This document shows, piece by piece, positions 3,079 to 51,772 of a stretch of 58,571 bases of DNA (the stretch's first letter is position 1; each line of letters begins with the position of its first letter). The position numbers were made by a program, and so were the translations under genes. The stretch covers positions 1-58,571 of the forward strand of contig JAICWV010000004.1 in NCBI GenBank assembly GCA_025966365.1, in the 5' to 3' direction. Below the pieces are notes generated by a model, which saw nothing but the letters and a program-made list of their open reading frames with translations, had not been told where the DNA came from and searched no databases. The DNA is from Chloroflexota bacterium. Lineage in GTDB: Bacteria; Chloroflexota; UBA5177.

Positions 3079-3852
3079 ATGGACACGGGTAAAAATGCCG
3101 AGCCGAAGCCGCAAATCGGTCAGATTGTCGACTCGCTGAATGCACAACTTCCCGACATTGCGTCTGACGTCATTCGGCGGCATCTCGACCCCGCCGATCC
3201 GGCGACTCGCGACTTCTTGCTGCATCCGGATGCCCGGGAGCAACACCAGACTCGCTGGCATCAATGGGGAATTATCACCCACACCCGTGTCTTCTTGCGG
3301 CATTTCGGCACCGATATACCAGGATATCTCAGAGAGTGGGACCTGTGGGACGCCGTCAACGACGTTCTGAGTGAGACCATTGACGGCGTGACTCGCTGGG
3401 ACCTGTTGCGCATTGGCATCCTCCTCCACGACATCGGAAAGTTTGGGGCCCGCTTTCACGGCGGTACCCGGTTCCATTTCACCGGGCACGAAGATGTATC
3501 GGGTCGGATAATCCGAGAGGAGCTGCAGCTGGAGGATTACGGCCTGACGGTCGCGCAGGCCGAGTACGCGGCCACCGTCGCCGAGGATCACTTTGTTCTG
3601 GGTCAGATGCGGCGTAGAGCTCGAGACCTGGGCGGTTACAACGAGGGATTCGCTCACTCGCCTGAATTTCGGATCATCGCCGGCCGCATCAAGCACGAGC
3701 ACCCCGCCGACTTCGTCGAAATCGGCGTTCTGTTTCTGGGCGACTCACTTGCCAAAGCTGACCCGCAAACCGGACCGCCCGATGCCGTGAGCCAGTACGC
3801 CATCAACATCGAGATCGCGCACTCCTATCTCGAGGTGGTACTGCCGGGATGA
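3079..3852 (+). CDS. HD-domain metal-dependent phosphohydrolase
   Basis: 257 aa, soluble. HD-superfamily ligands appear in order: an early His in IITHTRVF, the HD pair in LLHDIGKFGARFHGG, a later His in FTGHED, and a C-terminal Asp in FLGDSLAKAD. These are the residues that bind the metal in HD phosphohydrolases. The substrate cannot be told from sequence; nucleotides are a common substrate for this fold. Start ATG at 3079 has a poor Shine-Dalgarno, but no better in-frame start is seen. It lies 54 nt ahead of the sugar operon at 3907 and might be read with it. Confidence 0.82.
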   Translation: MDTGKNAEPKPQIGQIVDSLNAQLPDIASDVIRRHLDPADPATRDFLLHPDAREQHQTRWHQWGIITHTRVFLRHFGTDIPGYLREWDLWDAVNDVLSETIDGVTRWDLLRIGILLHDIGKFGARFHGGTRFHFTGHEDVSGRIIREELQLEDYGLTVAQAEYAATVAEDHFVLGQMRRRARDLGGYNEGFAHSPEFRIIAGRIKHEHPADFVEIGVLFLGDSLAKADPQTGPPDAVSQYAINIEIAHSYLEVVLPG

Positions 3853-3906: not shown

Positions 3907-6018
3907 ATGCTGATCGGCGCGGTTGCACTTAAAGAAGATGACTTGCAGTTCGTCACTAACGCCGCGGGCGATATTCTCCCGGGCGATAGTGCCGGATTTG
4001 GGCTGTACTACCGGGATACTCGATTCCTCAGCACGTTCGACCTGGCAGTCGCCGGACAGAAACCGCTCACGGTGTCGCACAACGCGAGCAAACACTACAT
4101 CGCGACGTTTCAGTACATCAATCCCCGCATGGGGATGGGCGACATTATTGTGCCGCAGCAATCCATCAGTATTCGTCGCAGCCGCTTTGTCACATCCCAG
4201 GGACTCTACGAACGGATCGGGTTGCTGAACTGCAATCATTTTCCCGTCGTGATCGGTGTGAGCCTGACGCTGGATGCAGACTTCCGTGATATTTTCGCGG
4301 TTCGCGGCTTCAAGTCCCAGCCGGCCGCGGAATCGATCGGGACGGATTGGGACGGTTCACGTCTTGAGTTCAGTTATTGCGGGCGTGACAGCGTGATGCG
4401 GCGGACCCACATCTCGTTCAGCCGGCCACCGGATGAGGTGGAGGGCTCGACCGCCACTTTTCAGATGCGGCTTGAGCCGCAACGAGTGGCCTCGGTGGTA
4501 GTGCGGGTGCAACCGCACGTGGGTGATGAATTCGAGCCGATGGACGACGATTTCGATCGCACCCTCGATCGGCTGGCCGCGTCATATCGCGACTGGGAGA
4601 CATCGTCTACCCAGATCGATACCGACAACGAGTTGTTCAATCGCGATCTCCTTCGTGCCAGCCGCAATGACGTACGGACGCTCCTGGAGCGAACCGACTG
4701 GGGTCTGGTGCCCGACGCCGGAATCCCATGGTATGCGGTGCCGTTTGGGCGGGATGCCATCATCACCGCGCTTCAGACGCTGTCCTACAACCCGGCCATT
4801 GCCGAAGGCACGCTGAGGTTTCTGGCCGCGCACCAGGGAACAGTGGTAGATCCGTTCAAGGAAGAGGAGCCGGGCAAGATCATGCACGAGCTCCGCAGGG
4901 GCGAGCTGGCCAATCTGGGCGAGATCCCGCACACGCCGTACTACGGCACGGTGGACGGCACACCGCTGTTTGTGGTGCTGTTCGTGGAAGCGATGGCCTG
5001 GATCCAATCGGAGGCGCTGTATCAGGACATTCTGCCTGCGGCGATGCGCGCGCTGGAGTGGGTGGACACCTACGGCGATATCGACGGAGACGGCTATGTA
5101 GAGTATGAGGCGCACCGGCCCGGCGGCGTGTACAACCACGGGTGGAAGGACAGCGCGGACTCGGTTCAATACGAGGATGGTTCCAGCGCGGTGCAGCCGA
5201 TCGCGCTGGTTGAGGTTCAGGGCTACGTGTATGCGGCCAAGATGGGCATGGCATCGCTCTTACGCCGCCACGGTGATGGAGCGCGGGCGGAGCGACTGGA
5301 GCGAGAAGCTGCAGTCCTGCGCGAGCGGTTCAACCGGGACTTCTGGATGCCGGATCAGGAATTCTTCTGCCTGGCTCTCGACGGAGAGAAACGGCAGGTC
5401 CGCTCGGTGACGTCCAATGCCGGCCACTGCCTGTGGTCGGGCATCTGCGATCCGGCCAAAGCCGATTCGGTGGCCGAGCGACTCATGGCGCCCGACATGT
5501 TTTCCGGCTGGGGGATCCGGACCCTCTCCGCCGACTCACCCAATTACAACCCCATGAGCTACCACAACGGCTCGGTCTGGCCGCACGACAACGCCATCAT
5601 TGCTCTCGGTCTGCGCCGTGCCGGCCACGGTGACAAGGCAGCGCGGCTGGTGCAGGCAATGTGCGAGGCGGGGTTCCGCTTTTCCGACGCGCGCTTGCCG
5701 GAGCTGTTCTGCGGCTTCTCGCGTGATCAGCGCTTCAATTCCAGTCCGGCGGCGTATGTTGTTTCGTGCAGTCCTCAGGCCTGGGCGGCCGGCGCTCTCT
5801 TTATGTTTCTGGAAAGCCTGCTGGACCTACGCCCGAACGCCGGGTCGCGGTCCCTGGTTCTGACCCCGGTCCTTCCGCCGATGTTTGCCCGGGTGACTCT
5901 CCGCAATCTCCGCATTGGGCCTCACCGCTTTGACGTCTCCGTCAGCCGAGAGGGAGAGATCGTGCGAACGGAGGTCGCGGAGCAGGGCGCTGAGTCCTCG
6001 CTCCCTGCCACTGCGTGA
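3907..6018 (+). CDS. Amylo-alpha-1,6-glucosidase / glycogen-debranching-type glycosidase
   Basis: 703 aa, cytoplasmic (no signal peptide). Residues about 10-200 match the N-terminal 'GDE_N_bis' domain (GDSAGFGLYYRDTRF). Residues about 255-690 form an (alpha/alpha)6 catalytic domain with PWYAVPFGRDAIITALQTL, MHELRRGELANLGEIPHTPY, HGWKDSADSVQYEDGS and SYHNGSVWPHDNAII. Members of this family are annotated as glycogen debranching enzymes, but few have been assayed. In this position, beside a GT4 and a GpgS-type enzyme, a role on glycogen or on a glucosylglycerate-type oligosaccharide is equally possible (inference). It overlaps the next gene by 4 nt, which indicates translational coupling. Confidence 0.88.
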   Translation: MLIGAVALKEDDLQFVTNAAGDILPGDSAGFGLYYRDTRFLSTFDLAVAGQKPLTVSHNASKHYIATFQYINPRMGMGDIIVPQQSISIRRSRFVTSQGLYERIGLLNCNHFPVVIGVSLTLDADFRDIFAVRGFKSQPAAESIGTDWDGSRLEFSYCGRDSVMRRTHISFSRPPDEVEGSTATFQMRLEPQRVASVVVRVQPHVGDEFEPMDDDFDRTLDRLAASYRDWETSSTQIDTDNELFNRDLLRASRNDVRTLLERTDWGLVPDAGIPWYAVPFGRDAIITALQTLSYNPAIAEGTLRFLAAHQGTVVDPFKEEEPGKIMHELRRGELANLGEIPHTPYYGTVDGTPLFVVLFVEAMAWIQSEALYQDILPAAMRALEWVDTYGDIDGDGYVEYEAHRPGGVYNHGWKDSADSVQYEDGSSAVQPIALVEVQGYVYAAKMGMASLLRRHGDGARAERLEREAAVLRERFNRDFWMPDQEFFCLALDGEKRQVRSVTSNAGHCLWSGICDPAKADSVAERLMAPDMFSGWGIRTLSADSPNYNPMSYHNGSVWPHDNAIIALGLRRAGHGDKAARLVQAMCEAGFRFSDARLPELFCGFSRDQRFNSSPAAYVVSCSPQAWAAGALFMFLESLLDLRPNAGSRSLVLTPVLPPMFARVTLRNLRIGPHRFDVSVSREGEIVRTEVAEQGAESSLPATA

Positions 6019-7256
6019 CGCGCCTCCTGGTCGTGCATTACACGCCACCGGGCGTGGTTGGGGGCGTGGAGAGCATCATCCACGAGCATGCCCGCATCCT
6101 GACCGAGCGCGGGTACGAGGTGGATGTCGTCGCCGGTCGGGAGGCCGGCCCCGGTATCTCCGCTCACGTACTGCCCGATGTGAACGTTGCCGGCGAGCAG
6201 GCGCGGCGGGTAGACGCCGCGCTGTCAGCCGGCGTCGTAAGTCCCGGATTCTGGTCGCTTCGCGACCGTATCACGGCGGACCTGGCACCCCTTGCCGCCG
6301 GCACCGATGTCCTGATCGTCCACAACGCCTATACCCTCCACTTCAATCTGCCGCTCACCGCCGCGCTGTGGAACATCGCGCGGACACGGGCTCCCGGCAG
6401 CACGATCGCCTGGTGCCATGACCTTTCCTGGGTCAATCCGTTGTACATGCCTCGCATGCGCGCCGGGTTCCCCTGGAGCCTTCTGCGGCTTCCTGCCCCC
6501 AATGTCGTCTATGTCGTCATCTCAGAGGAGCGCCGGCGAGAGCTTGAGGCGCTGTGGGGCGCGAACGGGACCTCCATTGCCGTTATCCCGAACGGGATCG
6601 ACCCTGCTCGGTTCCTGCGGCTTTCGCCCGAAATTCAGGCGGTGGTAGAGCGGTACCGATTGTATGAGCGCGATGCGGTCCTTCTCCTCCCTGTTCGGAT
6701 CACCCGGCGGAAGAATCTGGAGGCCGGGATCAAGGCTATCCGCGCGCTGGTGGAGCAAGGACGCGATCCGGTCTTCCTGGTTTCCGGACCGCAGGCGCCG
6801 CACCACCCGGGGCTCTCCGATACGTACCTGGAGGAGCTTCTCTCGCTGGCCGGCGAGCTCGGGGTGGAGGACCGTATTGTCTTTCTTGCCCGTGACCTGG
6901 GTCGAACGCTGGAAACAGACGAGATCAATCAGCTGTACTCGGTGTGCGACGCGCTGCTCTTTCCCAGCGCCCAGGAGGGATTCGGGCTCCCCATCCTGGA
7001 GGCAGGTCTGGCACGCGTGCCTGCGATTGTCTCGGACATTCCCGTCTTCGGCGAGGTGGGCGATGCCGACGTCTGGCAGTTCGACCCGGCCGCGGCGGCT
7101 GATACAATTGCGTCGGTTATCGTGGAAGCGCTGAGCGGACGGCCCTCGCGGCTGTACCGCCGAGTCCTCACCCGATACCGCTGGGATGCGATTGTGGACA
7201 CTGATCTACTTCCCCTGCTTGATGCAGGTGCTTGGCGCACCCCGAACCCGGCCTGA
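6015..7256 (+). CDS. GT4 family glycosyltransferase
   Basis: 413 aa with a GT-B fold. The N-terminal domain begins MTRLLVVHYTPPGVVGGVES with the usual Gly-rich acceptor-site loop. The C-terminal nucleotide-sugar domain contains PNGIDPARF and the family E-x7-E element in EGFGLPILEAG. It should transfer a hexose from a nucleotide sugar with retention of configuration; donor and acceptor are not predictable. The start is GTG, overlapping the debranching-type gene stop by 4 nt. Its place between a glycosidase and a GpgS fusion suggests a storage- or compatible-solute-glycan role (inference). Confidence 0.88.
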   Translation: MTRLLVVHYTPPGVVGGVESIIHEHARILTERGYEVDVVAGREAGPGISAHVLPDVNVAGEQARRVDAALSAGVVSPGFWSLRDRITADLAPLAAGTDVLIVHNAYTLHFNLPLTAALWNIARTRAPGSTIAWCHDLSWVNPLYMPRMRAGFPWSLLRLPAPNVVYVVISEERRRELEALWGANGTSIAVIPNGIDPARFLRLSPEIQAVVERYRLYERDAVLLLPVRITRRKNLEAGIKAIRALVEQGRDPVFLVSGPQAPHHPGLSDTYLEELLSLAGELGVEDRIVFLARDLGRTLETDEINQLYSVCDALLFPSAQEGFGLPILEAGLARVPAIVSDIPVFGEVGDADVWQFDPAAAADTIASVIVEALSGRPSRLYRRVLTRYRWDAIVDTDLLPLLDAGAWRTPNPA

Positions 7257-7289: not shown

Positions 7290-9134
7290 ATGAACGTCCT
7301 GGTTCCCGCGACCAGCGTGACCTCCTCGCCCGCACTTCTGGAAATCGCCGATGCTCTGGTAGCTGAATACAGAGGCACAGGCACGCTGCTCAGTGTGGTG
7401 GAGGTGCCGGAAGAGCGATCGCTGAGCGAGGGTGCCCTTGTCGTTCGGCGGCGGCGTGGGTTGCTGCGCAAGCTCAAGCAGTTTCCCCGCGCTCGTGAGT
7501 TTCAGGCCGAGGTTGTCACGGCGCACTCGCTCGAGTCGGGCATACGTCTCGGCGTGGAGGAAGCGTCAGCCGACTTGATGCTGCTGAACTGGCGGGTGTC
7601 GCGCTCGGCGACCGGTGGGAGGACGCTGGAGCGGCTGACGGGAGACCCACCGTGCGACATCGCCGCGGTCAAGGCGGGGCGAAACAGCGAGATCCGGAAG
7701 GTTCTCGTCCCCGCCCGCGGGGGACCGCACGCGCAACTGGCCCTACGTGTGGCGGAGGCTGTTGCGCGCCAGCACGGAGCGGTGCTCACGCTCTTGCATA
7801 TTTCCCGGCCTGGCTGGAGCGAGCAGCGGCGCCAGGTGGAGCGAGACTTTTTTAGCGCGGTGCGAAGCGGTGTTCGCTACGAGAACGTGGAAGAGCTGGA
7901 CATCGAGGCGGACTCGGTGGACCCGGTGCTGGTCGAGCAAGGTGCGGCCCATGACGTCATCGTGATGGGCGCCGCTGCCCGGGACGAGCGCAGCTCGTAT
8001 CTTTTTGGCGTCATCCCGGAAACGGTGGCGCGGCGCCTGGACGCGACCGTGGTGGTCGCCAAGACCAAGGAGCCGGTGACGTCCGGAACCTTCGGACTGG
8101 TAACTCAGCCGCTCGTGGCTCCGGAGCATCGCAATATCTCCGAGCTGGTCGATCGCTGGTTCGCGCAGAACACCTTCCATAGCCATGAGTTCCGCAACAT
8201 CCGTTTCCTCCTTGAGCTGAAGGAGCGGCAGGGAAAGTCAATCAGCCTGGCACTGCCTACTCTGAACGAAGAAAAGACGGTGGGCAAGATCATCTCCACG
8301 CTGCAGCGCAACCTCATGGAGCGCTATCCGCTGCTTGACGAGCTGATCGTCATCGACAGCAACTCCGAGGATGCCACCGTACAGATCGCAGAATCGCTGG
8401 GCGTGCCTGTCTTCAAGCACCCGGAAATCCTCCCGCAACACGGGTCGTTCAGGGGAAAAGGTGAGGCTCTGTGGAAGAGCCTGTATGTGACGCGCGGCGA
8501 CATCGTGGTCTGGATCGACTCGGACATTTCCGGGCTGCACCCGAAGTTTGTCTACGGGCTTGTCGGGCCCTTGCTGTCCGACCGCGATGTTGGGTTTGTC
8601 AAAGGGTTCTACCGCCGGCCATTGAACCTGGGAGGCCAACTCATGACGACAGGCGGAGGGCGCGTGACCGAGCTTACGGCCCGGCCTCTCATCAACCTGT
8701 TCTTTCCCGAGCTCTCCGGGCTGGTGCAGCCGCTGGCCGGAGAGATGGCGGGGCGCCGAGAGGTCCTGGAAAACATCCCGTTTTTCACCGGGTACGGGGT
8801 GGAGACAGGGCTGCTCATCGACATTCTGGAGCGGTTCGGCCTCGGCAGCATCGCTCAGGCCGATCTCGAGACCCGCGTTCACCGCAACCAGTCGCTCCTG
8901 TCTCTAAGCAAAATGGCATTCGCCATCATCCAGGTGGTCATCGAGCGGCTGGGTGAGCGGGATCGCATTGCGCTACTGGACGAGATGAACACGAGCATGA
9001 AGCTGATCCACTACTCGCCCACGGAGCTCTTTCTGGAAGTGAAAGAGATCCGCGAAAACGAGCGGCCGCCCATGGCGACCATCTCCGAGTACCAGCACCG
9101 CTTCGCTCGCAGGGTAGCGACACCCGCGGGCTGA
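7290..9134 (+). CDS. gpgS: Tandem universal stress protein domains fused to glucosyl-3-phosphoglycerate synthase
   Basis: 614 aa. Residues about 1-130 and 135-260 are two UspA-like domains; the second keeps the VIVMGAAARDE loop. Residues about 300-590 are a GT81 GpgS-like transferase: LPTLNEEKTVGKI, DSNSEDAT, GKGEALWKSL, the metal-binding WIDSDI near 411, FVKGFYRRPL, TGGGRVTELTARPL, GYGVETGLLIDI and THRN-like VHRNQ. GpgS enzymes transfer glucose from NDP-glucose to 3-phosphoglycerate, giving glucosyl-3-phosphoglycerate, the precursor of glucosylglycerate and mycobacterial methylglucose polysaccharides. No GpgP phosphatase is nearby. GAAGGGG precedes the ATG. The USP fusion is unusual: it could add nucleotide sensing (inference). 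It ends 4 nt from the convergent ferredoxin gene. Confidence 0.88.
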   Translation: MNVLVPATSVTSSPALLEIADALVAEYRGTGTLLSVVEVPEERSLSEGALVVRRRRGLLRKLKQFPRAREFQAEVVTAHSLESGIRLGVEEASADLMLLNWRVSRSATGGRTLERLTGDPPCDIAAVKAGRNSEIRKVLVPARGGPHAQLALRVAEAVARQHGAVLTLLHISRPGWSEQRRQVERDFFSAVRSGVRYENVEELDIEADSVDPVLVEQGAAHDVIVMGAAARDERSSYLFGVIPETVARRLDATVVVAKTKEPVTSGTFGLVTQPLVAPEHRNISELVDRWFAQNTFHSHEFRNIRFLLELKERQGKSISLALPTLNEEKTVGKIISTLQRNLMERYPLLDELIVIDSNSEDATVQIAESLGVPVFKHPEILPQHGSFRGKGEALWKSLYVTRGDIVVWIDSDISGLHPKFVYGLVGPLLSDRDVGFVKGFYRRPLNLGGQLMTTGGGRVTELTARPLINLFFPELSGLVQPLAGEMAGRREVLENIPFFTGYGVETGLLIDILERFGLGSIAQADLETRVHRNQSLLSLSKMAFAIIQVVIERLGERDRIALLDEMNTSMKLIHYSPTELFLEVKEIRENERPPMATISEYQHRFARRVATPAG

Positions 9135-50192: not shown

Positions 50193-51029
50193 CTAGGCGC
50201 TCGCTTCCCACGGGCGCGGCTGCCCGGTGGAGGTCTGTAGATGGGTGTGGTAAAACGCATCCAGGAATCGCGCCAGCCGCTCCATGGGAATCCTCTCCGT
50301 CAGGTGGCCGGCGCGTGCCAGGGAAATGATGCCGGTCTCCTCGGACACCACAACACAGGCCGCGTCGGTCTGCTCCGTGATGCCGATGGCCGCCTGGTGA
50401 CGTGTTCCATGACCGAGCGCGGCGGGGTTGTCGGAGAGAGGCAGCACGCAGCCCGCCGCCACTAGCCGATCTCCCCGCACGATGACGGCACCGTCGTGGA
50501 GTGGAGAGTGAGGGAAGAAGATGGAGACCAGGAGGTCGCTGGTGACTTCGCCGTCGACGCGTGTCCCGCTGCGGACAAAATCTTCCAGGCCGGTGTTGCC
50601 CTCCAGCACGATGAGCGCTCCGTACTGGCGCTCCGCCAGGCGGACGACGGCGTCGATCAATTCATCGGCGCTGGACGGCTGCAGCGGCGTGGATAGGGTG
50701 GCCAGCGGCCGGTTGATCAGCGCGCTGGTACGGCCCACCTGCTCCAGGGCCCGCCGCAATTCCGGTTGAAAGATGATGGGGAGCGCGACCAGAAGGACCA
50801 GCGGCGAGTTGCTGAGGAGCCAGTCCACCATGGTGAGGTGAAAGGTGGCGGCGGCCAGGGAGAAAAAGATGAACAGCAGGATGATGCCCCGGAGCACCTG
50901 ATCCGCGCGTGTCCCGCGCACCAGCATGAGGATTCCGTAAAACAGCAGGGTAACGATGCCGATGTCGAGGGCGCTGGACGGCGTGAAGCGTGAAAACGCA
51001 GAGACGATTTGCGAGATAAGATCTGCCAC
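50193..51029 (-). CDS. cdaA: Diadenylate cyclase CdaA
   Basis: 278 aa. Three N-terminal transmembrane helices (LDIGIVTLLFYGILMLV, IILLFIFFSLAAATF, SPLVLLVALPIIF) and a C-terminal DAC domain with FFPHSPLHDGAVIVRGDRL (DGA motif) and LGHGTRHQAAIGITEQTDA (RHxAA motif). It joins two ATP to c-di-AMP. GTG 51029 is chosen since GGGAG lies 6 nt upstream; ATG 51056 adds nine residues. Operon: cdaA-ybbR; glmM is not adjacent here. Confidence 0.94.
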   Translation of the reverse strand: MADLISQIVSAFSRFTPSSALDIGIVTLLFYGILMLVRGTRADQVLRGIILLFIFFSLAAATFHLTMVDWLLSNSPLVLLVALPIIFQPELRRALEQVGRTSALINRPLATLSTPLQPSSADELIDAVVRLAERQYGALIVLEGNTGLEDFVRSGTRVDGEVTSDLLVSIFFPHSPLHDGAVIVRGDRLVAAGCVLPLSDNPAALGHGTRHQAAIGITEQTDAACVVVSEETGIISLARAGHLTERIPMERLARFLDAFYHTHLQTSTGQPRPWEASA

Positions 51030-51091
51030 CGGAGGCTCCCTGAGAATAGCGGCCATCCCGGTCGCTGCACGCCGAAGTATACCAGTGTCAA

Positions 51092-51772
51092 ATGGCAGAA
51101 TATGGCGTCGTGAAAACAATTACGGCGATCGAAACGCAGCGCCGCGACCCCGAGCGCGTGAACGTGTACCTCGACGGGGAGTTTGCTTTCGGATTCAGCG
51201 CGCTGGTCGCAGCCGGCCGCGGACTGGTCGAAGGACGGACCCTCACTCCAGAGGAGATCGAGTCGCTCCGCTCCGAGGACGATGTGGAGAAAGCATTCAA
51301 TGCCGCGCTGAACTTTCTCTCGTTTCGGCCCCGGAGCCGGCGCGAAATTGAGAATTACTTTCGGCGCCGCAAGCTGGAGCCGGACGTCGGGGCTGCCGTG
51401 GTTGAGCGGCTGGAGCGCATCGGTGTGCTTGACGATCGCGAGTTCGCGCGCTACTGGGTGGAGAACCGACAGACCTTCCGCCCCCGCGGAACGCGGGCGC
51501 TGAAGGCAGAGCTTCGGCAGAAGGGCATCGAGTCGGAGATCATCGACGACACCCTGGCGGATCTGGGCGACGAGGAGGAGACGGCCTACCGGGCCGGCAT
51601 GAAGAAGGCGCGGTCGTACAGCACCGCGGACGAGCGCGAGTTCTTCCGCAAGATGCTGGGATTCCTGCAACGCCGCGGCTTCCCGTTCGGACCGGCGGCG
51701 TCCGCATCGCGGCGCATCTTCCAGGAGCTCACGTCGACCGAGCCGGAGACGGACCTCCCTGCGAGCGACTAG
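51092..51772 (+). CDS. recX: Regulatory protein RecX
   Basis: 226 aa, RecX size range. It has tandem three-helix repeats (LNFLSFRPRSRREIENYFRR, RLERIGVLDDREFARYWVEN, AELRQKGIESEIIDDTLADL). RecX inhibits RecA filaments. recA is not in the window. Start ATG 51092; TTG/GTG codons nearby are less fitting. Its TAG lies inside the palindrome CTAG that also ends the ABC ATPase gene (4-nt overlap). Confidence 0.92.
   Translation: MAEYGVVKTITAIETQRRDPERVNVYLDGEFAFGFSALVAAGRGLVEGRTLTPEEIESLRSEDDVEKAFNAALNFLSFRPRSRREIENYFRRRKLEPDVGAAVVERLERIGVLDDREFARYWVENRQTFRPRGTRALKAELRQKGIESEIIDDTLADLGDEEETAYRAGMKKARSYSTADEREFFRKMLGFLQRRGFPFGPAASASRRIFQELTSTEPETDLPASD

Follow-up and report, generated by a model that had tools for sequence, protein, structure and literature searches.

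Tandem universal stress protein domains fused to a GT81 hexosyl-3-phosphoglycerate synthase are the usual form of this enzyme in Chloroflexota and may act as a built-in sensor

Products of glucosyl-3-phosphoglycerate synthase (GpgS) have established roles as compatible solutes or glucan primers. The solved GpgS and MpgS enzymes of family GT81 (including M. tuberculosis GpgS and R. xylanophilus MpgS, 3f1y) are single-domain proteins, and the donor-, metal- and acceptor-binding residues of the M. tuberculosis enzyme have been defined (see PMC2581804). Tandem-type universal stress proteins (USPs) such as TTHA0350 and Rv2623 carry two USP units per chain, and tandem USPs assemble as dimers of tandem dimers (see PMC3673472). 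The fused USP of KdpD, a protein under osmotic control, lacks the ATP motif, of which it retains only the first Gly, and binds c-di-AMP (see PMC8214093). In Halomonas elongata, the USP TeaD influences compatible-solute levels by modulating TeaABC, an ectoine transporter (see PMC9006882), and together these two proteins provide precedents for USP control of osmolyte or ion levels.

At the locus described here, within a window of 58,571 nucleotides from a Chloroflexota genome, a tandem USP stands ahead of a GT81 domain in a single protein, an arrangement that sets it apart from the solved GpgS and MpgS enzymes. The gene belongs to a cluster whose order (HD protein, GDE-type hydrolase, GT4, fusion) is the same in the window and in near relatives:

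3079..3852, + strand: HD-domain protein, first gene of the cluster, kept in the relatives L007-L009
3907..6018, + strand: hydrolase of the GDE_N_bis / amylo-alpha-1,6-glucosidase family, its end overlapping the GT4 start, kept in near relatives
6015..7256, + strand: GT4 glycosyltransferase, the conserved upstream partner, only weakly like mannosylglucosylglycerate synthase (cut-off 640, score 71 bits)
7290..9134, + strand: USP-USP-GT81 fusion gene, a single ORF from an ATG, 614 aa, 0 internal stops
7290..7682, + strand: USP domain 1 (aa 1-131), with invariant R56 and without the ATP motif (Pfam Usp, model, fold match)
7683..8075, + strand: USP domain 2 (aa 132-262), with near-invariant R143-G144-G145 and G227 and without the ATP motif (best Pfam Usp stretch 135-258)
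8079..8129, + strand: interdomain linker of low confidence (aa 264-280; pLDDT <50 in the AlphaFold model)
8148..9101, + strand: GT81 catalytic domain (aa 287-604), with DSD 410-412, K390, GRVT 457-460, Y502, E505 and H531 (NF010496, Foldseek, residue mapping)

The preliminary description of this DNA had read two UspA domains ahead of a GT81 domain in one protein, and Pfam, NCBIfam, AlphaFold and Foldseek analyses bear this out. Pfam matched Usp in two stretches of the 614-aa protein (51.2 bits, cut-off 24) together with Glycos_transf_2, and NCBIfam assigned residues 287-599 to the glucosyl-3-phosphoglycerate synthase family NF010496 (384.3 bits, cut-off 262). An AlphaFold model built with 23 homologues (pLDDT 85.5, pTM 0.80) comprises two alpha/beta USP units followed by a GT-A domain. 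In Foldseek comparisons its C-terminal part resembled GT81 enzymes (RxMpgS and MtGpgS, with a TM of 0.92 by target to 3kia), and the fold matches also included the tandem-type USPs TTHA0350 (with ATP) and Rv2623; by Pfam, model and fold match, the fusion belongs to the tandem-type USPs, with two USP folds per chain. The closest solved structures were all GT81 (3f1y, E 6e-76, then M. hassiacum and M. tuberculosis GpgS), whereas a sequence search of the PDB with the USP half by itself gave no convincing match. GC3 (0.71-0.80) and codon-position GC were uniform over all parts of the gene.

The GT domain shares fold, ~41% identity and all mapped residues with M. tuberculosis GpgS and R. xylanophilus MpgS. 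The mapped equivalents E327, S357, K390, D410, D412, R458, V459, T460, Y502, E505 and H531 were invariant across the 59 canonical fusions; 14 of the 15 mapped catalytic positions were conserved in 59/59, and N533 in 58/59. The GpgS hallmarks (DXD, Lys114, Glu232, His258 and the G-R-V-T acceptor loop) were all kept in the window protein and in 59/59 members of the family. Residue mapping therefore indicates a catalytically complete GT81 domain, and the earlier assignment to GT81 stands on the 384-bit match, the GT-A fold and a residue-for-residue match to the mapped M. tuberculosis active site. The donor loop, linked to mannose discrimination in its PLSGE form, reads PLSGE in mycobacterial GpgS and PLAGE in the window protein, with Ser at this position in 41 and Ala in 18 of the 59 canonical fusions. 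Because PLAGE is also the loop of R. xylanophilus MpgS, the sequence does not fix the donor as glucose or mannose; the GT81 assignment behind the glucosyl-3-phosphoglycerate synthesis proposed earlier holds, but the sugar transferred may be glucose or mannose.

The fusion is not an artefact of the assembly. The three nearest relatives (L007, L008 and L009; 62-66% identity) all carry it in the same operon as the window, in the same order on contig JAJPIP010000025.1 of L007, so that separate genes, which would have weakened the earlier proposal, were not found in close relatives. A join by misassembly or frameshift was ruled out by the presence of the fusion in independent assemblies and in every near relative. 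In a survey of 400 Chloroflexota genomes (GT81 match at E <= 1e-30; curated NF010496 cut-off 262), 118 had a GT81 match and 115 of these exceeded the cut-off, all in open frames of at least 480 aa. Since frame length proves nothing alone, individual loci were read: the best alignment segment reached the first USP in 28 of 30 fetched loci, and of the two others, L067 is truncated by a contig end and L087 has USP1 in the alignment. Thus, USP-USP-GT81 is the usual form of GT81 in Chloroflexota, present in nearly all carriers, and what had been implied to be an oddity of one genome is standard in the phylum. A triple fusion (GT4-USP-USP-GT81), to which frames of about 1000-1400 aa had pointed, was rejected, the surplus being out-of-frame reading of GC-rich DNA; frames of 900-1400 aa hold no additional fusion. 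In the OLB14 assembly (L029:5965-7762) the fusion frame is broken inside the GT part, a break absent from the other relatives read.

The statement that GpgS enzymes usually stand alone does apply to several other sampled lineages, though not to Chloroflexota. The phylum sample taken around L022, a Deltaproteobacterium, contained six GT81s, all stand-alone, and so were the nine above-cut-off GT81s around the Balneolaceae MAG L026 (Balneolota sample), with frames of only 269-337 aa. In the GT-domain tree, whose root is not settled, the USP-less L022 and L023 were nested within the fusion branch (100/99), which indicates loss of the USPs in this branch, probably following transfer. Spirochaetota contain both stand-alone and GT81-EIIA forms: L024 (947-2590) and L124-L130 carry a PTS EIIA type 2 domain C-terminal to GT81 in an apparent regulatory fusion (assigned by Pfam on L024 and suggested by an extension of equal length in L124-L130), and a GT4 resembling mannosylglucosylglycerate synthase adjoins the L124 GT81. 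Seven of seven Bacillota GT81s had ~175 additional N-terminal residues. The clostridial GT81s (L030, L031, L133-L139) bear a single diverged USP-like N-terminal domain with an R-G-G signature, and the profile of this region matched USP2 (prob 92-93%, E 6e-7 to 3e-7, R-G-G shared) but neither USP1 nor the GT control. This profile comparison is the sole line pointing to homology with USP2 and, in three of the eight sequences, a weak one; no USP appeared among the 50 best fold matches of the domain, where the model is poor (10-residue mean pLDDT ~26-83). Three further proteins (L131, L132 and L033) place ~190 aa after a GT81-like domain, a region that by eye resembles a HAD phosphatase in L131 and L132; these are perhaps bifunctional synthase-phosphatases.

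Genomic context points to compatible-solute metabolism. A GT4 gene lay immediately upstream at 46 of the 64 fusion loci; among the 34 loci that extend 700 bases or more in that direction, the count was 24. A histidine phosphatase, a family whose assignment is ambiguous, lay immediately downstream in 16 of 62; none adjoins the window gene, and candidates occur elsewhere in its genome. The upstream GT4 and occasional phosphatase fit synthesis of glucosylglycerate or mannosylglucosylglycerate, and the product is likely glucosylglycerate or a derivative, serving as a compatible solute or glucan primer. Several Anaerolineae loci also contain a GT4 that resembles mannosylglucosylglycerate synthase at 222 bits (below the cut-off of 640). 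Other neighbours included a GH13 phosphorylase with relatives among the sucrose/glucosylglycerol phosphorylases (L012 and L029) and a gene resembling glucosylglycerate hydrolase (L016).

The USP half is evolving rapidly (25-55% identity, against 61-78% for the GT domain), and only nine of its columns are at least 90% conserved, among them R56 (58/58 aligned proteins), R143, G144, G145 and G227. The ATP motif G-X2-G-X9-G-(S/T) was absent from both USPs of the window protein and found in 0/59 USP2 and 4/59 USP1 domains, unlike in TTHA0350 and Rv2623, which are also free of any joined enzyme. The motif's first Gly (G227) is retained in 59/59 and G240 in 53/59, but A230 takes the place of the second Gly and V241 that of the final Ser/Thr. 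ATP-binding USPs typically carry an acidic residue at beta-1; in USP2, Arg-Gly-Gly stands in its place, with R143-G-G lying in the beta1-alpha1 loop, the ligand position in other USPs. Like the KdpD USP, the fusion is a joined USP keeping the motif's first Gly, but reading of the alignment showed no conserved KdpD-type c-di-AMP motif (A/G/C)XSXSX2N(Y/F) in the beta1-alpha1 loop of USP1 or USP2. TeaD differs in being a separate ATP-binding protein with a transporter as its target. A transporter is also the effector in the amino-acid permease-USP-USP proteins L034-L036, whose tandem USP is 26-28% identical to aa 1-266 of the fusion and shares LSEG-x7-R (USP1) and GGP (USP2), though L034 has Ala rather than Arg preceding GG.

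Four further USP-USP-GT81 copies, L032 (5764-7938), L104, L105 and L106, have a decayed GT active site. DXD, GGGR and His are missing from them in varied combinations, and 1, 1, 2 and 8 of the 15 catalytic residues are left, against 8 or 9 of the 9 conserved USP columns. They occupy at least two distinct places on the tree; in two cases the genome also carries an intact copy (L107 for L104, L113 for L032), and no GT4 neighbour was detected beside any of the four. Since the USP signature outlasts the GT active site, the USP columns seem to be under selection independent of catalysis. The module thus appears to have a function of its own, which would most simply be ligand sensing with catalysis as the normal target, and the decayed copies may be pseudo-enzyme regulators.

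We propose, with a probability of roughly 60%, that the fusion is a compatible-solute hexosyl-3-phosphoglycerate synthase with a built-in, probably allosteric tandem USP sensor for a ligand other than ATP. The GT domain would transfer the glucose (or mannose) unit of a nucleotide sugar to 3-phosphoglycerate, a phosphatase (often the neighbouring histidine phosphatase) would free glucosylglycerate, and neighbouring GT4 enzymes could lengthen it to a compatible solute such as mannosylglucosylglycerate. The USP pair, probably folded as an internal dimer resembling TTHA0350 or Rv2623, might bind a small anion; the site would perhaps involve R143-G-G and G227 together with R56 of USP1, and the ligand would shift the pair relative to the GT domain, turning activity up or down in response to osmotic, nitrogen or energy state.

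Two observations count against a sensor: the fast evolution of the USP half would equally suit a structural or solubility role, and L022 and L023 keep the operon without USPs, making the module dispensable there. The USP pair could instead serve structure or oligomerisation, scaffolding a tetramer or stabilising the GT domain without ligand control, as the dimers of tandem dimers formed by other tandem USPs (PMC3673472), the weak overall conservation of the USP half and the existence of USP-less relatives would allow. We consider this rather unlikely, given that the invariant residues include the charged R56 and R143, that R143-G-G sits in the ligand-holding loop, and that these residues remain in the decayed copies, where a scaffold has little reason to outlast the active site. 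Channelling of product through recruitment of the operon's GT4 or phosphatase, with no ligand sensing, would explain why GT4 so often adjoins the fusion (46/64 loci), but we regard it as very improbable, since L022 and L023 retain both partners without USPs and the decayed copies hold the USP signature with no GT4 beside them.

The nucleotide- or stress-gated synthesis suggested in the preliminary description survives in part: a conserved fused module with its own invariant residues does suggest control, but ATP as the ligand has lost ground, and none of the evidence favours cAMP. Gating through the canonical motif is rejected by the motif counts, and a sensed ligand is probably not ATP in the canonical binding mode. 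ATP/ADP energy-state gating through a non-canonical site retains the conservation of G227 and G240 and the resemblance to ATP-bound TTHA0350 in its favour; with the motif missing from all 59 USP2 domains and from 55 of the 59 USP1 domains, A230 and V241 in place of key residues and Arg-Gly-Gly in the USP2 loop, we judge it improbable. A bolder version of the non-ATP sensor, offered tentatively and at well under even odds, is that tandem USPs with R56 and R143-G-G form a new ligand-sensing class whose signal (e.g. a cyclic dinucleotide or phosphorylated metabolite) would gate compatible-solute synthesis directly, the decayed paralogues being sensors or regulators that keep the reading part.

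No joint mention of GT81 with UspA, or of glucosyl-3-phosphoglycerate synthase with universal stress protein, was found in the open-licence literature, nor any description there of fused-sensor control of the GpgS step; the USP structure paper (PMC3673472) does not mention glycosyltransferases. What USPs bind is a long-standing open question for the family, and a phylum-wide fusion to a synthase gives a direct biochemical read-out of what a USP senses. Clostridia and Spirochaetota offer parallels, with USP-like and PTS EIIA fusions respectively, which suggests that domain-level control has repeatedly been imposed on this committed step.

Genes related to c-di-AMP were observed in some of these genomes. 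The window encodes a CdaA-type c-di-AMP synthase (DAC + CdaA_N; 50193-51119, - strand), the only DAC match in its genome. A c-di-AMP receptor gene (PF06153) lies shortly downstream of the fusion in two other loci (L012:7823-9776 and L029:7815-8150); in L012 it is preceded by a Na+/H+ exchanger, and the region upstream of the GT4 carries a ClC channel with TrkA_C.
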